Origin: Bacteroidota bacterium
GTDB lineage: Bacteria > Bacteroidota > Ignavibacteria > UBA10030 > SZUA-254
Length of the DNA stretch: 64,000 bases
Direction of reading: 5' to 3'
Assembly (NCBI GenBank): GCA_020056225.1
Contig: JAGVIE010000013.1
Location: forward strand, 1-64,000
Every line of letters begins with the position of its first letter. Positions within the stretch are counted from its first letter, which is position 1. A program made the position numbers and the translations under genes. The notes beneath the pieces were generated by a model. It was given only the letters and a program-made list of their open reading frames with translations. It was not told the origin of the DNA and made no database searches. Shown here piece after piece: positions 45,884 to 54,994 of the stretch.

Positions 45884-48706
45884 CTATCGTAGGAGCAATA
45901 GTTTTTTTGTTTCAATATAATTCCCCGCCTGTAGGCGATAATAATAAACGCCGCTCGATAACCTGCTTGCATCAAATGTCAACGATTTGTAACCCGGCTC
46001 TTCGACTACGTTCACCAGCGTTGCGACTTCTCTGCCAAGAACATCAAAGAGCTTCAGTGTGACGTGGCTTTGCAAAGGGAGTTGATAGCTGATCGTGGTG
46101 TTTGGATTGAACGGATTCGGGTAATTTTGATTTAGAACGAACTCGTTAGGTAGCTGTCTCTCTCCTTCCAGCATAACATCAGGCGGCGGTGGCGGCAATT
46201 CTGATGATTGTACGATTCTTATCCTCGATGCTATTTCCCCAACATACTCGCTGGATGTAAGAATGAGCGATCCATCTTGATTTACTTTCACCCAATAGCC
46301 GTATCCCGGATAGAGTGTATCCGTTGTCTGGTAGCTCACTTCATATTTAAAGAAGCTCCTTGTGATCATCCCTGATGGGATGCTATTTATGGATGACACA
46401 GCAATAGGTTCTGAGATCGAGCCAATCATATTCCATCCTTCTATTATTTCAACCGTATCGTCCATTAAAGGAACACCAGTGAGAATAACTCTTTGGTTAT
46501 TTTCGAATTTCAACCAATACCCGGAGCCATTCTGGAGTGTATCCTTACTCAGATATAGATGATCATATGCAAACGCGTCCGAAACCGATGATGGATAAAT
46601 AAAATCTTTCATTTGATTCCGGACTTTAATTGGGATCGAAATCATATTCCATCCAGATGAGAGTTGATATGAATAAAGCGACTCGCTTGCCGCAGTTGTG
46701 AAATGAAGTATATTCGACCATTCACTCTTACCGTTTGAATCCTCAGCATCCACTCGAGCATAATAAGAAGTATTGTCGGACAAACCATTTACAGTCTTAG
46801 CCGTATCCACAAGCGTTGAATCATCGAATATTAAAACTGTAAAAGATGTATCAGTCGAAATTTGCAGATGGTAAGAGACAGCACTCGTGGCAGTCGTCCA
46901 ACACAGTGTTGGATTGACCGATAGTCCAACTGCATCGATAATGTGAGGTGCCGCAAGGGTTGTGGTAAAGCTCCATGTGCCCGACCAATCACTCAACAGC
47001 GAGTTTACGTTCCCACGAACACGCCAGAAGTATCGAGTTAGTGTATTAAGTTTTGTTGGTGTGTAAAATGTATCTATAATTGCCGATTGATAGAAAATTA
47101 TTGAAGTAAAATTTGTATCAAACGCGATTTGGAGTTGATACGTTACCGCATCGCTCGAATCACTCCATCGAAATTGCGGGACTAAGGGAATACCGAATGA
47201 ACCATCCGCAGGTGCAAGAAGAGTTGGAGGACTGACGAATAGAGAAATGTATTTTTCATACGCGCCCATATCAACACGATTCTCTGACAGCCTCAAATTA
47301 CCATCGAAATCGAATTCTCCATAGGAAGGTACAAACGATGGATCACCGGCATTAACTGCGGGTGATGATGTTTGCAAGTGTAAGTCTGGCAGTGATGGAG
47401 AAACAAAAAGAGGATCGCTGAAAATTGAATGAGCATCCTGACCTGTTCCTGTCTGGTAAGCACTGAAGGAATTGTATATCATTCCATTATAATCTATTGA
47501 GGCATTATTTATTCCGCCGGGAGTAAACCAAAGATTGTAATCGAGTGAGTTGCCGTTGGAGTTACCAACTGTAGTCGTCATAAGTCGATCCTGTGTGGTA
47601 CTGCAAAAGATATTATTCTTTATTACACAATTAACGGCATACTCGATAATAATCTCACCTTCACCCGTTGATAGCTGATCGTTTTGGAAAACAGTATTGT
47701 TGAGGAACTTGGAATCACGAACCTGACCTGTAACGGGATAGTTGTACCCTCCGAAAGAGAGTCCCCGCTTATCGTTGTTGTATATTAGATTATTGCGGAC
47801 TATGATACTATCGGCAATCCTGCCTTGATTTTCGCATCCAACTTCAATACCGACATCACACTGATAAACACGGTTGCGTTCTATGATAATTTTTCTTGCG
47901 CCATCAACATAAATTCCAGCCGCATAACCGTCGCCATAGTTCGAGCGGCAATTATAAACTGTGTTACCTGCACAAACGCCGTTTCGTGCGGCATCGAGCG
48001 ATGAAGTGGGACAAGTACCTTCGCCTCCGATCATGTCGATACCGATGTTGTCATTATCATGAACAAAATTGTTTGTAATCTGAAATGTGTCAACATTGCC
48101 GTTCAATGTGAGCGATTCACTATGACCGGGTTGGCAGTTGTAAATCTGATTGCTGTCTATGATAATGTTCGAAATTGGAATATTCGCATGACTTCCGTAA
48201 ACCGATATTCCCATTGCATCTCCGCCTCCAATTGCTGCCATCATGTCGTGAATTCGGTTCTTTCTGATCTCGATATGATCGCCATAACCCTGAACCCATA
48301 TTCCTGTCCCGAAAGTTTGATTTAGATTATTCTGTAATTCAAATCCGATGAGCTTTATGAAGCTTTTATTTTGGACAAGAATAATTTGATCGCCTGCTTC
48401 CCCAGTGCCATCGATAATAACATTGTCGTTTCCGAAGTTTTGAAAAGTAATGTATCCTCCCGATGAAGAACCGCTAACGTTAACTGAAAGTTTCTCGTTG
48501 TATGTTCCTTCTTTAACATAGACAGTACTCCCCGGTGTTGCACTGTTGAATGCTTTCTGAATGGTTAGCCACGGTAAAACTTCAGTTCCGGGATTGCTGT
48601 CGTCCCCGTTTTTCGCGATATAGTTGGTTGTTTGGGCTATTACCGGTTGATATAATAATATGGATAACAAAATAATCCGACGTATTTGCACTATAATCGA
48701 TCTCAT
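45884..48706 (-). CDS. Secreted right-handed parallel beta-helix protein with type IX secretion sorting domain
   Basis: This 940-residue protein has a signal peptide (to about residue 24). A DUF1565-like start (YIAKNGDDSNPGTEVLPWLT) leads into pectate-lyase-type beta-helix repeats (about 50-470, with many N-x-I-Y-N-C turns). Two fibronectin type III-like modules follow (about 490-680). The last 85 residues are a type IX sorting domain with QNYPNPFNPNTTISYQLP, LFDVLGREVATL and SSGVYYYRLQAG. The protein should pass the outer membrane by T9SS and stay on the cell surface or be released. The beta-helix suggests polysaccharide binding or cleavage, but no catalytic residues can be named. It lies between the intact herA and the herA remnant. 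Confidence 0.9.
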   Translation of the reverse strand: MRSIIVQIRRIILLSILLYQPVIAQTTNYIAKNGDDSNPGTEVLPWLTIQKAFNSATPGSTVYVKEGTYNEKLSVNVSGSSSGGYITFQNFGNDNVIIDGTGEAGDQIILVQNKSFIKLIGFELQNNLNQTFGTGIWVQGYGDHIEIRKNRIHDMMAAIGGGDAMGISVYGSHANIPISNIIIDSNQIYNCQPGHSESLTLNGNVDTFQITNNFVHDNDNIGIDMIGGEGTCPTSSLDAARNGVCAGNTVYNCRSNYGDGYAAGIYVDGARKIIIERNRVYQCDVGIEVGCENQGRIADSIIVRNNLIYNNDKRGLSFGGYNYPVTGQVRDSKFLNNTVFQNDQLSTGEGEIIIEYAVNCVIKNNIFCSTTQDRLMTTTVGNSNGNSLDYNLWFTPGGINNASIDYNGMIYNSFSAYQTGTGQDAHSIFSDPLFVSPSLPDLHLQTSSPAVNAGDPSFVPSYGEFDFDGNLRLSENRVDMGAYEKYISLFVSPPTLLAPADGSFGIPLVPQFRWSDSSDAVTYQLQIAFDTNFTSIIFYQSAIIDTFYTPTKLNTLTRYFWRVRGNVNSLLSDWSGTWSFTTTLAAPHIIDAVGLSVNPTLCWTTATSAVSYHLQISTDTSFTVLIFDDSTLVDTAKTVNGLSDNTSYYARVDAEDSNGKSEWSNILHFTTAASESLYSYQLSSGWNMISIPIKVRNQMKDFIYPSSVSDAFAYDHLYLSKDTLQNGSGYWLKFENNQRVILTGVPLMDDTVEIIEGWNMIGSISEPIAVSSINSIPSGMITRSFFKYEVSYQTTDTLYPGYGYWVKVNQDGSLILTSSEYVGEIASRIRIVQSSELPPPPPDVMLEGERQLPNEFVLNQNYPNPFNPNTTISYQLPLQSHVTLKLFDVLGREVATLVNVVEEPGYKSLTFDASRLSSGVYYYRLQAGNYIETKKLLLLR

Positions 48707-49077: not shown

Positions 49078-49140
49078 GGATAACATCCTGCATGAAATTG
49101 ACATACTGTAGCGAACTATAATTAATAAATTTCTTGTGAA
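49078..49140 (-). repeat. Half of a fourth attC-like site, broken by IS110
   Basis: On the plus strand GGATAAC (49078-49084) is followed by exactly 26 bases and then GCGAACTATAATTAATAAAT. The two complete sites have the same 26-base distance between their AAC and GCGAACTATAATAAA. Similarity ends near 49140, and the other half of the site is missing here. A box matching the far side lies at 50645-50651, beyond the IS110 transposase. Confidence 0.6.
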
Positions 49141-49269
49141 CGAAGCAATAGTTCATTTTACATTTTTGTTGCTGATATTTCTAAAAGGTCTCCGTGAGTC
49201 AAGAGAAATTCGTATGATTGATTACCGAATCAAATCAACGCTTTCAGAACTAACTCACAGGAGAACCAT

Positions 49270-50358
49270 ATGTTATATACAGGTATTGATTTACATCGCC
49301 AGTCGATCGTCGTATGCACGATCGATGAAACCGGCACGGTCATTGAACGCCGAACTATGAAAACGCAAATGGAACTTGTCAACACATATTTTCGCCAATG
49401 GACAATTGAGCATCATGCAGTTGTTGAATGCACAACTGGTTGGTATTGGCTCTGTGACCTGTTGCGCTCACTCGGTATTCACGTCGTGCTGGCACATGCA
49501 AAATACTTAAAAGCAATTTGTTATGCAAAAGTAAAAACAGATGCAGTAGATGCAAAAACACTTGCCAATTTGCTGCGCATGGGATATGTTCCCGAAGCAC
49601 ATCAACTGCCACCTGAATATCGAGCAATGCGAGATTTGTTACGTCAACGGATGGTTATGGAACACAAGCGTACAAACATTATTCAGCGCATCTCAAGCAT
49701 TCTGGCACAGTTCAATATCATCAAAATGTCCTGTAGTCCATCCCAAGGATCATTTGCCGATTTCCTTGAGAATTGCCCGCTACCGGATGAATATCGTATG
49801 ACACTCAACATGTATCATCATCAATGTATGCAGACAACAGAGGATCGAAAACAACTCGAAGCATATTTCAAAAAACGACTCCGACCAACATCAACTGTTC
49901 AGTTATTAATGTCGATCCCCGGTATCGGTGACATCACCGGATCTATCATTGTCATGGAAACAGGAGATATCAATCGCTTCGCCGATGCAAAACATTATTG
50001 CTCCTATTGTCGTCTTGCACCCGGTGCAAATGATTCAGGTGGAAAACGTGGTCATCGTTCCGGCTCGAAAGACGGCAATCAATATCTCAAATATGCCTTT
50101 ACTGAAGTAGCGATTAAGGCTATGATGTTCTATCCTGAGATCAAACGATTTGCTACCGAGTTGGAACAGCGAGCTAATAAGACAATTGCCCGAACAGTAG
50201 TTGCCAAAGAACTTGCTAAGATTGTTTACTATGTTTTAACCAGAAGCCAAGAATTTAAAACATTTAAGGGCGTCAAGATTGAAAAACTACGCGACTGGCC
50301 TCGTGCCCGTAAGCCCGTGCGCCTAACTGGAGAGAGTATCATTTCTCCGCTTAGCTGA
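49270..50358 (+). CDS. IS110-family DEDD transposase
   Basis: A 362-residue transposase, the typical length. The RuvC-like N-terminal domain supplies the acidic tetrad D7 (TGIDLHRQS), E53 (VVECTTGWYW), D91 and D94 (KVKTDAVDAKTLANLL). A helical middle follows, and then the C-terminal domain with SIPGIGDITGS and the catalytic serine region PGANDSGGKRGHRSGSKDGN (S264/S266). It works with a structured bridge RNA from the element's own non-coding end. AGGAG lies 7 bases before the ATG. No frameshift or stop is seen, so the gene looks intact and possibly active. Confidence 0.93.
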   Translation: MLYTGIDLHRQSIVVCTIDETGTVIERRTMKTQMELVNTYFRQWTIEHHAVVECTTGWYWLCDLLRSLGIHVVLAHAKYLKAICYAKVKTDAVDAKTLANLLRMGYVPEAHQLPPEYRAMRDLLRQRMVMEHKRTNIIQRISSILAQFNIIKMSCSPSQGSFADFLENCPLPDEYRMTLNMYHHQCMQTTEDRKQLEAYFKKRLRPTSTVQLLMSIPGIGDITGSIIVMETGDINRFADAKHYCSYCRLAPGANDSGGKRGHRSGSKDGNQYLKYAFTEVAIKAMMFYPEIKRFATELEQRANKTIARTVVAKELAKIVYYVLTRSQEFKTFKGVKIEKLRDWPRARKPVRLTGESIISPLS

Positions 50359-50397
50359 TTGGGATACGGGCATGGTGCCGATGAAACATCTGGGATA

Positions 50398-50434
50398 GCC
50401 TGCTTGCTCCCGCCAAGGGCGGGATTCAGCAGGC
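50398..50434 (+). other. Two-stem hairpin in the IS110 3' non-coding region
   Basis: An outer stem GCCTGCT (50398-50404)/AGCAGGC (50428-50434) encloses an inner stem CCCGCC (50409-50414)/GGCGGG (50418-50423), with symmetric four-base internal loops. It is a candidate for part of a bridge RNA, or for a terminator that insulates the transposase gene. The remaining 3' region to 50600 has only a small GAGCT/AGCTC hairpin near 50454. Confidence 0.45.
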
Positions 50435-50644
50435 AAGTCTGTCAAGCCACGATGAGCTGACAGCTCAAGCCCGATAAAGTGTTTGGGACCAGTCTATGTA
50501 TAAACCGGATCCTGATGACGGGGATGTTCTCTCGGCAGTGTTAGTCATATTTACGATCGTTGCCGCCAATACGACCATGATCACATCGTTAAAAAATAAC
50601 GACGCAGGATATCTTTTTCTCTTGATTTTGACCTTTTATAAAGT

Positions 50645-50665
50645 GTTAGCTGCAGTTGCCATTGA
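50645..50665 (-). repeat. attC-like outer box closing cassette 3
   Basis: GTTAGCTGCAGTTGCCATTGA on the plus strand is the inverted counterpart of the start of the same cassette (minus strand from 51662), with 19 of 21 positions equal. It lies 22 bp after the cassette gene's stop codon. The sequence beyond it shares only scattered words (ATAAAA, ATCCTGC) with the two complete sites. Confidence 0.55.
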
Positions 50666-50687
50666 TAGATGAAGAGTCTTTTCCATC

Positions 50688-51581
50688 TTATTTTGTGAGT
50701 CTGTAAACAACGTAAAGAACAAATGGGCAAACAACACCACCAAAAAGAAAAAGTGCAGTTCGGAAAAGTATGTGAGTGTTTAAGATATTGCGCAGACTTC
50801 CCATGTTCATTTCATTTGGAGCGATTTTGTTTGCGCTTAACATTGCCCTACAATAGTCCTGGCCTGTTAGGGTATTGGGAAAATTTAAATCAGCGAATGC
50901 TACGATGATTGCCACGACGGAAAGCGTTGCCACTATGATCCATGGAATGACCTTCGGTGATGCAAGGATATCTTCAACCTTTGGGTAAAGAAGCGTGCCG
51001 AGAATGAATATTATCGTCATGAGAACGAAATCTTTAAGCCATCCAATGTCGTTCATTCTCAAGAAGGGAAACAGGTCGTGCCTTGTTGAAAAGAAAATGA
51101 AGATGGCAAAGAGAAAAGCCCACATCCCAATGTGAAACAACTTCTCTGGGGCATAGTTCATGGTAATCCACTGCTGTAGGAAGGGTATTGCCAGACCGAC
51201 GACTGTTGGGACGATCAATTCAACTGGCTGGTTAGCCTTGAATCCTAATAGAAACCTGCTGATGAAGTGGGTGAATGCGATCGAACCTATTGTCAACACG
51301 ATGACATCAAAGATAGGTAGCTCTGGTATACAATCCTTTGGCATGTATGGAATATTTGCCGCTCTCAAAGCAACAGTCCAGAGAAGAACAAAAATCACAC
51401 TGACATCAAACCAATTTAGGAAGTGTGAATCTGTTCCGTGTGGTAACTTAAGAAACGATCCAAAGTTCAAGTTACCATCTCTGAGGTTTAGCAGTCCCAT
51501 ATGATATACTATTGTCTCTACTACAGCGAGGGCGAGGAAGAATGTCCATATAGAATTCAGTACGGTGATATTAGCTGGCAT
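50688..51581 (-). CDS. Unrecognised polytopic membrane protein (cassette 3)
   Basis: I set the start at ATG 51581, because AAGGAGG lies 9 bases upstream (51591-51597); the earlier in-frame ATG at 51620 has no such site. The 297-residue product begins MPANITVLNSIWTFFLALAVV. It has about seven hydrophobic segments (near 8-30, 50-70, 90-112, 122-140, 150-170, 185-205, 215-235) and one more at the C-terminus (TALFLFGGVVCPFVLYVVY). There is no known motif. The gene fills its cassette, with an 80-bp leader and 22 bp from stop to the attC-like box. Unknown membrane proteins of this kind are frequent cargo of environmental integron arrays. Confidence 0.7.
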   Translation of the reverse strand: MPANITVLNSIWTFFLALAVVETIVYHMGLLNLRDGNLNFGSFLKLPHGTDSHFLNWFDVSVIFVLLWTVALRAANIPYMPKDCIPELPIFDVIVLTIGSIAFTHFISRFLLGFKANQPVELIVPTVVGLAIPFLQQWITMNYAPEKLFHIGMWAFLFAIFIFFSTRHDLFPFLRMNDIGWLKDFVLMTIIFILGTLLYPKVEDILASPKVIPWIIVATLSVVAIIVAFADLNFPNTLTGQDYCRAMLSANKIAPNEMNMGSLRNILNTHILFRTALFLFGGVVCPFVLYVVYRLTK

Positions 51582-51655
51582 ACGAGAAAACCTCCTTGTG
51601 TCGATTCTGATGTTGAGCATGCTGTAAGTTCGGTTTAGAATTCAATGGCAATTGC

Positions 51656-51793
51656 AACTAACGTCTGGCATAAAAATGACGTACCGTTGCGAACTATAAT
51701 AAAAAATTATTTTGAGAGCAACGGTATGTTCTACTAAGCAGGACGTTGGATTTAACTTTGATAATTTCTGATTCATTTTTATGCTTGGTAGCT
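51656..51793 (-). repeat. attC-like site between cassettes 2 and 3 (138 bp)
   Basis: The limits are AACTAAC (51656-51662) and GGTAGCT (51787-51793), the latter a degenerate GTTAGCT. Inner arms GGCATAAAAATGA (51667-51679) and TCATTTTTATGC (51773-51784) pair. The interior has GCGAACTATAATAAA, GAGCAACGGTATGTTCTACT and AAGCAGGACGTTG, which are nearly identical in the site at 52856. Confidence 0.65.
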
Positions 51794-51833
51794 GGCGTTT
51801 GCATTTAAAGACAGTAGAATATGCAAACTGAGA

Positions 51834-52796
51834 TTATAACTTTTTTGTTCTTCTTCGTTTTTTCTTAGTTGTGTCATTTGTGACCCTTGCTTCTGCTGAT
51901 TCTATGTGTGCAACAAGAAACTTTTGATCAGGTCTCATAAGTTGTCTTGGATTAATTACGGTGTATTGTTCGATTTCAGGTATAGTTGAACCCGATTTTG
52001 AGAATTTATCGATGCAATCGAGCACCTTTCTCTTGAGAAGTTCAGCCTTTTCAGGTTCGATCGAACCGTTTTGACGCATCTGCGATATCTTTTCAATAAT
52101 GGGCAGCGAACCTGCAATTAGTTCAAGTTGCTTGCCAGATTTATCTTCTCGGAAGAAAACAAGTTTGTTCCAGAAGGCTATAATGATTTCCTTAACCATT
52201 TCTATTGCTTTGGCAAGACCAAGGAAATCAAACGCCTTATCGCTTCCAGAGTCACAAGCTACAACGGAGAGTGAGTTTGTATCAAGATGAAGTAGTTCAG
52301 CAGAAACCTCGTAGAATCCCTTAATGCTTTCAAGAATGAGTATTAAACGCTCGGGACTTGATGAACCGTTGTCCTCTATTGCAACCACGGTAAGCGGTTC
52401 AAAGGAGACACGTTTTTTGCTAGTTACAACTTTTTGCAGTACAGTTTCTGAAGATTCCTGATCTAGCAACTGCAATATTTTATAAAGATTCTCCATTGCA
52501 AATCTTAGGCGGTCAAACTTGTTTCGTATCTCATGGGGGCCAGGTTCTTTTTCACGGTCACGTACAAACAGGAGAGACCAGAACTTTACATCAGTTAGGA
52601 AATCGAGACCGTAGATTTCGATTATCTTCTTTTCGACAGGACCATACTTTTCTGCCAGTAAAAGGTATCTGCGGAAGGCTTCGAGACCCATTTCGGGTGG
52701 CATTTTCTCTGGTATATGGAATGACATCTCGAATTCTTTGTTTGAGACTGAATTAAGTACGTTTTTCATTCCGTTTACGATTTCTCGACGTAGCAT
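51834..52796 (-). CDS. Unrecognised soluble protein (cassette 2)
   Basis: A 320-residue protein without signal or membrane segments. The N-terminal half is helical (MGLEAFRRYLLLAEKYGPVEKK). The middle has FEPLTVVAIEDNGSSSPERL, and the C-terminus ends in a very basic tail TKKKRRRTKKL that could bind nucleic acid. I do not recognise the family. It is preceded by AAAGGAA near the ATG, has a 65-bp leader after the cassette junction, and ends 41 bp before the next attC-like box. Confidence 0.65.
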   Translation of the reverse strand: MLRREIVNGMKNVLNSVSNKEFEMSFHIPEKMPPEMGLEAFRRYLLLAEKYGPVEKKIIEIYGLDFLTDVKFWSLLFVRDREKEPGPHEIRNKFDRLRFAMENLYKILQLLDQESSETVLQKVVTSKKRVSFEPLTVVAIEDNGSSSPERLILILESIKGFYEVSAELLHLDTNSLSVVACDSGSDKAFDFLGLAKAIEMVKEIIIAFWNKLVFFREDKSGKQLELIAGSLPIIEKISQMRQNGSIEPEKAELLKRKVLDCIDKFSKSGSTIPEIEQYTVINPRQLMRPDQKFLVAHIESAEARVTNDTTKKKRRRTKKL

Positions 52797-52855
52797 CAGG
52801 ATTTTCCTTTCATTTTATTATTCTACTATTAGTTAAGTTCAGCTATGCAAATGCC

Positions 52856-52993
52856 AGCTAACGCATGCAATAAAAACGAATGTATGAAGCGAACTATAAT
52901 AAATAAATATCTTGTGAGCAACGGTATGTTCTACTAAGCAGGATGTTGTATTAAACTTTGTTAATTTATGATTCATTTTTATGCTTGTTAGCC
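52856..52993 (-). repeat. attC-like site between cassettes 1 and 2 (138 bp)
   Basis: The limits are AGCTAAC (52856-52862) and GTTAGCC (52987-52993). The arms GCAATAAAAACGAAT (52867-52881) and ATTCATTTTTATGC (52971-52984) pair with few mismatches. Length equals that of the site at 51656 exactly, and long interior stretches (such as GAGCAACGGTATGTTCTACT) are identical. The cassette 1 stop codon lies 13 bp from the box. Confidence 0.7.
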
Positions 52994-53006
52994 GAACCTT
53001 AATTTG

Positions 53007-53636
53007 TTACTCATTGTTTTTCGTTCGTTCTCTGACCCATCCAATGGCATAAAGTATTGATACAATTAAAACTAAAGTGCAGTTTAATATTATCCACCAT
53101 GTCCATCCAAAAATTGAAACCAATCTGTATGACGAAAGAAATTGCGCAACGATAGGTCCAAAGAAAACAGTTACCATGTATAAGAAACTAATCACTATTG
53201 ATGCAATTTCTTGTACTCCAGAGTGTAGCATATTCATCATCATATTATGAAAATCGGGGTATCGAAAGGGTGAACTTTTTAGAATCCACTCACGCTTGAT
53301 GTCATACCCCAAAGATTTGTAAATGCTATAAATCTCGGCTTCTAGTATCTCAGCATGGGCAAAAAGAGCTAAGTGATATACCATAATGACTCCAACGATC
53401 CAGTTAGAGATAATCAACATTACCCACGTTGGTACCTTAAAATTAATACCGCTAAAAACTATAGTATCAGATGCTTCAATGGTACCACTACAAATCCCAA
53501 GAACAATTAGTGATAAGAGTAATAACAATATGAATACTCTGTTCTTGATGCGACCGGTCTGAAACAAGGTTGTTGTCAACTGGTTCATGAATTGAAGGCT
53601 TAGCTGTTTATCGATTTTATTAACAATTTCTTTCAT
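53007..53636 (-). CDS. Unrecognised membrane protein (cassette 1)
   Basis: A 209-residue protein with four hydrophobic segments (near residues 33-52, 68-92, 140-160 and 178-200), and a soluble loop in the middle (HAEILEAEIYSIYKSLGYDIKREW). There is no known motif. The gene fills the cassette: the ATG lies 28 bp after the junction GTT at 53665, and the stop codon abuts the terminal inverted repeat. It is AT-rich. It might be an immunity or envelope-modifying protein, but nothing in the sequence decides this. Confidence 0.65.
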   Translation of the reverse strand: MKEIVNKIDKQLSLQFMNQLTTTLFQTGRIKNRVFILLLLLSLIVLGICSGTIEASDTIVFSGINFKVPTWVMLIISNWIVGVIMVYHLALFAHAEILEAEIYSIYKSLGYDIKREWILKSSPFRYPDFHNMMMNMLHSGVQEIASIVISFLYMVTVFFGPIVAQFLSSYRLVSIFGWTWWIILNCTLVLIVSILYAIGWVRERTKNNE

Positions 53637-53658
53637 TTCTGTTTTGCAAATTAAGTTC

Positions 53659-53665
53659 GGCTAAC
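53659..53665 (-). other. First cassette junction box (GTTAGCC)
   Basis: On the minus strand GTTAGCCGAAC marks the start of cassette 1 and matches the inverted end of that cassette at 52987. The sequence before it does not share the attC interior (no GCGAACTATA at 26 bases), so it is either a different attC or an insertion point such as attI. Confidence 0.45.
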
Positions 53666-53674
53666 GCTGCACGG

Positions 53675-53699
53675 AAAAAACCCCGCTCTTTGAGCGGGA
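53675..53699 (-). terminator. Rho-independent terminator upstream of the cassette array
   Basis: On the minus strand CCCGCTC (53698-53692) pairs with GAGCGGG (53688-53682) around AAA, followed by T6. It would stop transcripts from reading into the array from the right. In 53700-54130 I see no gene or recognisable element, only AT-rich sequence. Confidence 0.7.
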
Positions 53700-54130
53700 C
53701 GAGCGAACGAATCTTCATATTTTTTGTTTTAGTTTATTTAAACAACTTCTGTGTTTCATCTGGTATTTTATATTCGTCTTTCGTTTAGGGAAAAGTGTAT
53801 TCCTCTGCCACAAAAAAAGTAACCAAAACAAATGAACATCAGTAATCGAAAAGATCATCATCACATCCGCGCACTCCGTATTATCATATCAAATTCATCT
53901 GCGCGGGTTCCCCTGTTTCTACTCCATCAAAACGTAGATGCAAAATATAAAAGATGCGATTAAATGTCAAGCAAAATATAGCTCATTCTCTTGTTCAGGT
54001 CAGGCACTTCGCAAGGTCAGGCTGGAAGGCTAGGCTGGATATTTGTAAAATACAGTCAATTTTGGCATAATCCTGTATTATTTAAGTCAGACATGGGGTG
54101 TGCGTGTATACTCGTATTGCTAAGCTATAT

Positions 54131-54337
54131 GTCCGTTCTAAGGAACGAACTCTACGCTTTGTTCGGTGTCCTCCGTCGTCCGTTCTAAGGAACGGATTCT
54201 ACGCTTTGTTCGGTGTCTTCCGTCGTCCGTTCTAAGGAACGGACTCTACGCTTTGTTCTGTGTCCTCCGTCGTCCGTTCTAAGGAACGGACTCTACGCTT
54301 TGTTATCTGTGTAGAGTCCTTTCCTCAGAAAGGACTC
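54131..54337. repeat. REP array: four direct 47-bp units plus one inverted REP
   Basis: The palindrome GTCCGTTCTAAGGAACGGAC, or a one-base variant, begins at 54131, 54178, 54225 and 54272, exactly 47 bp apart. Its spacer CTCTACGCTTTGTTCGGTGT is conserved. On the minus strand each palindrome is preceded by GTAGA. A fifth copy in the opposite orientation (54311-54337) reads GTAGAGTCCTTTCCTCAG and keeps the stem through paired changes. The GTAG tetranucleotide 5' of the hairpin is the mark of REP sequences recognised by RAYT. Confidence 0.85.
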
Positions 54338-54466: not shown

Positions 54467-54994
54467 ATGAAAATATCCGGGAAACCACCACGTTATCAAG
54501 AGGATCATTCAATTTATTTTCTGACGTTTTGTACTTACAAACGGCAACAGTTACTTCACAGAACAGGTATACCCGAAATGCTCATCGAAAATCTTAATCG
54601 CTACGTCAAACATTTAGACGAACTGATTGCCTATACGATCATGCCCGATCATATACATATTCTCGCCAACGTTACAACTGTTTTGAACCTTTCGATATTC
54701 TTACGAAATTTTAAAAAATGGACATCACTTGAGATACGACGAATACTAAAATACGATAGTCAACACGTTTGGCAACGTGGTACAATGGATCATTGCATCA
54801 GATGGTCATGGGAAAACAAAGATTTTGATAATCATCTTCAATATCTTTTATCAAATTCATCGAAACACCTTAATATTCCGCCGAAGGATTTTCGTTATCA
54901 TAATTTTCTGGAATTCGTTGAAAAGGGATGGTTTGAAGAAGATTTTTATGGAGGCGATGATATAGAGTTATCAAAACGCTATGAGCCACAATAG
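54467..54994 (+). CDS. REP-associated tyrosine transposase (RAYT, TnpA-REP, Y1 HUH family)
   Basis: A 175-residue protein with the RAYT layout: YQEDHSIYFLTFCTYKRQQL near the start, HUH motif MPDHIHILANV (H62 and H64 in H-I-H), then FKKWTSLEIRR, WQRGTMDHCIR and the tyrosine helix HLQYLLSNSSKHL (Y123). It nicks single-stranded REP hairpins. REP copies lie on both sides (54131-54337 and 55038-55057), all of one family, so this is a complete RAYT-REP unit. AGGAGGG precedes the ATG with good spacing. Confidence 0.9.
   Translation: MKISGKPPRYQEDHSIYFLTFCTYKRQQLLHRTGIPEMLIENLNRYVKHLDELIAYTIMPDHIHILANVTTVLNLSIFLRNFKKWTSLEIRRILKYDSQHVWQRGTMDHCIRWSWENKDFDNHLQYLLSNSSKHLNIPPKDFRYHNFLEFVEKGWFEEDFYGGDDIELSKRYEPQ

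Follow-up and report, generated by a model that had tools for sequence, protein, structure and literature searches.

The window analyzed here comprises 64,000 nucleotides of a Bacteroidota bacterium (assembly GCA_020056225.1, contig JAGVIE010000013.1, positions 1 to 64,000) and carries on its minus strand, at 49078-53665, an array of three gene cassettes and three attC sites, the third of which is split. Sequence comparison indicates that this is very probably the cassette array of an integron whose integrase has been lost, and that the parent system runs on a tyrosine recombinase without the IntI-specific domain (I2) of canonical integron integrases (hereafter, patchless integrase). Such a recombinase would insert circular cassettes at an attI site directly behind its own gene, and would recognize the folded single attC strand through the R and L arms together with an extended outer arm bearing an A.C mismatch. 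The array and the sequence ahead of it contain the following features:

53720..53785, minus strand: 3' remnant of an integrase gene of the patchless integron type, 66 bp (by blastn, 86% identity over 66 bp with the integrase gene of contig C59 in this genome, at its 3' end; E 6e-16)
53666..53719, minus strand: truncated attC-like GC-rich right half between the integrase stub and cassette 1, ending in ...TTTTTTCCGTGCAGC ahead of the first GTT
52862..53664, minus strand: cassette 1, its ends being the inverted repeats GTTAGCCGAAC / GTTCGGCTAAC
53007-53636, minus strand: cassette 1 gene, 209-aa protein with hydrophobic stretches, no family
52856..52993, minus strand: attC site 1, 138 bp (R1 model, 138 bits)
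51662..52861, minus strand: cassette 2, start GTTAGCTGGCATTTGCAT / reverse complement of its own end GGTAGCTGGCGTTTGCAT
51834-52796, minus strand: cassette 2 gene, 320-aa protein without long hydrophobic stretches, no family
51656..51793, minus strand: attC site 2, 138 bp (R1 model, 159 bits)
49084..51661, minus strand: cassette 3, containing an inserted insertion sequence (IS), ends GTTAGTTGCAATTGCCATTGA / TCAATGGCAACTGCAGCTAAC (21 nt at 90%)
50688-51620, minus strand: cassette 3 gene, 310-aa protein with hydrophobic stretches, no family

The R1 attC model was built from the two intact sites of the window and three other sites of the same genome, and a scan of the window gave high scores only at the two 138-bp sites, followed by the split third site (36 bits). 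An earlier note made from the sequence alone had described two nearly identical 138-bp elements, three same-strand genes and GTT-type boxes at every joint. All of these were recovered: the positions of the elements are exact, the two sites are 84% identical over 138 bp, the genes lie where listed, and a GTT box is present at each joint. Behind the third gene lies a third site, split by an IS110/IS1111-family element that the note had missed. Within the GTTRRRY core the GTT is nearly invariant, and the following bases often deviate from RRRY (e.g., GTTAGCC, GTTATGC). The R'' box of attC site 2 (51787-51793) reads CTACC, one base off CTAAC, and this site may be inactive. The evidence also supports the proposal of a cluster of attC sites lacking integrases (CALIN; at least two attC sites and no integrase nearby) in a Bacteroidota-related lineage, with three sites in the window and the integrase represented by a 66-bp stub alone. 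As had been stated, the gene products fall into no recognizable family: searches of Pfam, NCBIfam, PHROG and PADLOC gave no match of note, and the fetched loci contained no homologue. An Rfam search of the window returned zero matches.

The statement that no integrase was present overlooked the remnant at 53720-53785, which lies just upstream of cassette 1 and is also 81% identical to contig C1 of a near-complete relative (G007). Intact relatives of this integrase are found in the same genome on contigs C59 and C52, both at contig ends with the edge less than 200 bp from the stop codon, as expected if arrays broke the assembly. The end of the C59 gene carries the same inverted repeat and GTT as array-bearing relatives. 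A tyrosine integrase with the IntI patch had been named as something to look for; a cognate integrase family does occur in the same genome, but the patch is absent from it. The canonical IntI model TIGR02249 matched nothing in this genome at its cut-off, and this blank first suggested a plain CALIN, a view that was overturned by two-piece matches of the model to the integrases of this genome and of the family, in which positions 180-232 are left out. With the cut-off at 265 bits, the whole patchless proteins score 230-245. An alignment with canonical IntIs of the same order shows every catalytic residue retained and about 40 residues missing, the I2 helix among them, so that the IntI-specific domain of the textbook definition is missing. 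Their closest solved structure, both by sequence profile and by fold, is 2A3V, a Vibrio integron integrase. Among variants, one patchless integrase (G001 contig C157, L103 7723-8961) is extended at its N terminus by some 110 aa, and in many Bacteroidota relatives the open frame has 350-400 aa. Upstream of another array, on G007 contig C6 (L094 12569-12769), stands an integrase 3' end truncated in a similar way, a sign that integrase loss left such a stub in a second genus as well.

The association between patchless integrases and attC arrays extends well beyond the window. In five genomes (G007, G013, G010, G001 and G004) the integrase lies directly ahead of attC arrays in the same direction, and its stop codon is followed by an A/T-rich inverted repeat and the start of the first cassette. 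Further loci were obtained from a phylum search and a scan of named genomes, with hosts among Ignavibacteria, Ignavibacteriales, 'Chlorobiaceae', Kryptoniota and other Bacteroidota metagenome-assembled genomes (MAGs). One rule was applied to the 32 loci with downstream sequence, comprising Ignavibacteria-type MAGs, other Bacteroidota genomes and plasmids. A complete first cassette was found in 22 of them, on the same strand and starting -32 to +237 bp from the integrase stop, and 20 of these 22 have A against G at position 11. The reverse-strand control yielded 0/32; a few matches, not traced singly, came from random windows of these loci. The position of attI, with the first cassette beside the integrase gene, is therefore seen in 22/32 loci, and in the window as a remnant only. 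By the R1 model and the own-end rule described below, the R and L arms of the sites fold and all point in one orientation; no attC site was found upstream or on the opposite strand at the named loci with arrays. Right halves like that at 53666-53719 precede cassette starts on contig C15 of the same genome and behind the G007 integrase (blastn 69-90%). Gene-less, GC-rich cassettes of about 200 bp also recur, with a GTTCCGC start and a GC-rich attC end (L019 16570-16780 and 19870-20000, L097/L022 1300-1480, L094, L099 and L102), a truncated example being the one ahead of cassette 1 in the window.

In the wider phylum, strong hairpin sites follow the integrase in 11 of 12 stretches, several from single-contig genomes, and in none of five shuffles. 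A complete plasmid of Chryseobacterium sp. SNU WT5 (NZ_CP041688) carries such an integrase and, after it, several attC-type sites together with a group II intron and an IS110-family IS. Both of these elements (L232 16062-19844) are antisense to the array, like the IS of the window. Among IS110-family elements and among group II introns alike, members that target attC sites are known.

The cassettes themselves bear a trace of movement as circles. As long as a cassette sits in an array, hundreds to thousands of bases separate its start from the R'' side of its own attC; in the excised circle, the two come to lie opposite each other at the site. If cassettes moved in this form, each start is expected to be the reverse complement of its own end and not of its neighbors' ends. 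In seven cassettes of this genome (three from the window, three from C15 and one from C24), 9-14 of 16 positions agree between a start and its own end, as against 1-10, mostly at most 7, between a start and a foreign end; the true pairing ranks best of all 5040 permutations. Across the wider family, 25 of 33 cassettes reach at least 12 of 20 own-end matches, with cross pairs near background. Occurrence of the 138-bp element beside other genes had been proposed as a check, and near-identical sites of this type do flank different genes, both on C15 and in several further genera of the family. This points to cassette shuffling and excludes confinement of the element to a single gene order. An orthologous locus with other cassettes was searched for in G007 and not found.

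The outer arm formed by these ends has a characteristic interruption. In the Ignavibacteria-type family, cassette ends pair at positions 1-10 and then again to about position 19. Position 11 pairs in only 1 of 33 cassettes, and in 20 of the 25 well-pairing ones an A faces a C in the folded strand. In the patchless arrays this A.C mismatch is near-invariant and lies 10 bp out from the crossover. Outer arms in the wider Bacteroidota group are shorter, with the same interruption at position 10-11. In canonical IntI arrays of the same order, by contrast, pairing is unbroken over 9-15 positions, and position 11 is paired in 8/8 cassettes as against 1/25 of the patchless family (Fisher p 6e-7). A first hairpin scan for canonical attCs by textbook core motifs found none; a gapped scan and a genus-specific motif recovered them. 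The mismatch is likely a mark for strand choice.

These observations bear on a different account of the array, in which it is an ordinary CALIN, its cassettes having been mobilized by a canonical IntI that either acted in trans or has since disappeared, and the patchless recombinase is an unrelated neighbor. CALIN cassettes can indeed be moved in trans (PMC9668308), and canonical IntI was found in 13 of 60 searched relatives, including one (G005) of the same family. However, no canonical IntI was found in 14 of the 15 family genomes, among them the near-complete G007 (10 contigs) in which arrays are present, and attCs of this kind occur in 8 of the 15. The account also leaves aside the first cassette directly behind the patchless integrase in 22/32 loci and the position-11 mismatch, which is absent from canonical arrays of the same order. 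We thus consider it improbable. Two genomes, G019 and G023 (L123/L170 and L125/L172), carry a canonical IntI together with a patchless integrase.

Slightly less probable again is that the palindromes are double-strand, dif-like sites of a Xer-like recombinase, and the array an IMEX-like (integrative mobile element exploiting Xer) or tandem-insertion product. The patchless recombinases also resemble XerA/XerD, passing the curated cut-off of NF040815, and lack the part held to bind extrahelical bases. Yet the asymmetric bulged A in the L arm of the hairpin and the cassette-specific outer arms would be needed only if one strand folds, and both the crossover point and the cassette unit match those of integrons.

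Several points weigh against a cassette system run by the patchless recombinase. Under the strict rule, 10 of 32 loci have no complete first cassette, and the attC finder was home-made and tuned on this family. No arrays accompany the more distantly related patchless recombinases of Runella, Emticicia and Patescibacteria. The canonical control for the mismatch consists of eight cassettes from two genomes (G024 and G052), and the fold model of the integrase is of middling quality (pLDDT 74.5, pTM 0.55). Published work holds the I2 domain to be necessary (PMC9668308, PMC7790495). Finally, whereas the cassette structure, the attI position, the shared direction of integrase and array, the missing domain, the separate clade and the specific mismatch can be read directly from sequence, the recombination itself is inferred, as are its catalysis by the patchless recombinase, the use of the folded strand and a part of the mismatch in selecting this strand.

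In phylogenetic analysis, canonical IntIs formed one clade (100/100) and XerC/D another (100/100). The patchless array integrases formed a third clade (98/94), which grouped with Bacteroidota and Patescibacteria relatives, and IntI and the patchless enzymes together were separated from XerC/D with 100/100 support. A tree in which IntI and the array-bearing clade alone form one clade was rejected (approximately unbiased test, p 0.0024), so nesting of the patchless enzymes within IntI is not favored. Within the sampled set, they do not look like IntIs that lost their domain. With XerC/XerD they share the fold and the lack of an I2 helix, differing in their separate, fully supported position. NCBI names them under NF040815 (recomb_XerA_Arch, 'site-specific tyrosine recombinase/integron integrase'), a name that is anchored on archaeal XerA and has no link to cassette arrays.

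Compared with integrons run by canonical IntI (class 1, Vibrio, Xanthomonas and others), the patchless system has the same attI beside the integrase gene, tandem cassettes closed by attC palindromes, the crossover G|TT and mostly one gene per cassette. Unlike in those integrons, the integrase is without the IntI-specific domain and belongs to another clade, its gene is co-directional with the array, and the attC has a longer outer arm with the A.C mismatch at position 11. The array of the window shares with CALINs the presence of attC sites without an intact integrase; it differs in that a remnant and intact homologues of a non-canonical integrase have been identified.

The third attC was most likely entered later by an IS1111-type element guided by its own RNA. 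The split site and the IS comprise:

50645..50652, minus strand: R'' part of attC site 3, CAGCTAAC, followed directly by the IS
49174..50644, plus strand: IS1111-type insertion sequence, its ends derived from comparison with the intact C36 site and relatives
50359..50643, plus strand: 285 nt of non-coding sequence downstream of the transposase gene, in the place of the seekRNA of IS1111 elements (by position only)
49270..50358, plus strand: IS110-family RNA-guided transposase, 362 aa (NF033542, 9e-64, cut-off passed; Pfam DEDD_Tnp_IS110 and Transposase_20)
49078..49173, minus strand: remainder of attC site 3 past the IS, AGCAACAAAAATG ... GATGTTATCC, ending in GTTATCC (R1 model, 36 bits)

Because an intact near-copy of site 3 is available on contig C36 of the same genome (ATAACAGCAACAAAAATG), the entry point could be placed directly behind the R'' box; this comparison ruled out a cut in the attC loop, which we had supposed at first. 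The element has sub-terminal inverted repeats (AAAAGGTC/GACCTTTT). In IS1111 elements, the seekRNA is encoded in the non-coding region downstream of the transposase gene (PMC11187229). A seekRNA of this group would carry guides to both target strands; guide matching in the window IS gave only the 6-mer TGTTAG at 50539, which is at about chance level and not significant. On contig C24, a second copy at the contig's edge adjoins attC in this same place (one flank present), and relatives of the IS in L039, L040 and L041 (76, 80 and 48% identical) lie at this position directly after ..TAAC of attC, as far as flanks are present; in L038, attC is found on one side only. Insertion at one attC position is the behavior of the IS1111-attC group (PMC11187229). 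Like members of this group such as ISKpn4 and ISPst6, the window IS combines a DEDD transposase, sub-terminal repeats and a downstream non-coding region with insertion at a fixed end of attC; in contrast to them, it lives in Ignavibacteria-type genomes and enters the attCs of patchless integrons. That the IS reached the third site by chance, or that the split site is the decayed end of the array, is very unlikely given these recurrent positions and the matching habit of the group, even though one further copy in the genome, on contig C26, has a flank (L023 1-135) that is not recognizably attC; this alternative concerns the IS alone and is compatible with any reading of the array.

Two further features adjoin the array. 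Directly upstream, at 54130-54304 and 54467-54994, lies a repetitive extragenic palindromic (REP) unit of four to five palindromic GTCCGTTCTAAGGAACGGAC repeats with 47-bp spacing, beside a REP-associated tyrosine transposase (RAYT; NF047646, 71 bits, slightly below the cut-off of 80). Just beyond the other end, a C-terminal sorting domain (NPFNPxTTIxY), as in substrates of type IX secretion, is encoded at 45884-48706, and stretches in or near related arrays encode similar domains (L096 9102-9395, L103, L107 8501-8746 and L095 2031-2273).

Integrons have been reported from Chlorobi, Ignavibacteriae and Salinibacter (PMC9024848). The I2 domain has been described as unique to IntI, an innovation that enabled single-strand recombination and for which intermediates are lacking (PMC7790495), and for IntegronFinder a protein counts as IntI when the IntI-specific domain is present (PMC9668308). 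Since this definition requires the missing domain, patchless arrays should be filed as CALINs. A classification of tyrosine recombinases calls the insertion 'not fully conserved' in its integron-like subgroup, and no link between patchless proteins and arrays was found there (PMC8138268). We found no report of integrons whose integrase lacks I2 among the published papers searched; preprints were outside the search, and priority is uncertain.

We consider it rather likely that integrons can do without I2, and that a sister clade of IntI, present in Ignavibacteria and other Bacteroidota, cultured species among them, and on plasmids, operates folded-attC cassette systems by means of an outer arm that is extended and bears an A.C mismatch. 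Single-strand cassette recombination may then be older than the IntI domain, or may have two origins, and among the CALINs of these phyla many may be complete integrons unseen by current tools. The I2 domain serves both as the marker of integron integrases and as the supposed origin step of single-strand recombination, and natural integrases that lack it and lie at attC arrays make this origin directly testable. If true, cassette capture would have a wider range than known in a major phylum of the environment previously regarded as poor in integrons, and new search models would be called for. Overall, integrons look broader, and are perhaps older, than the textbook definition.

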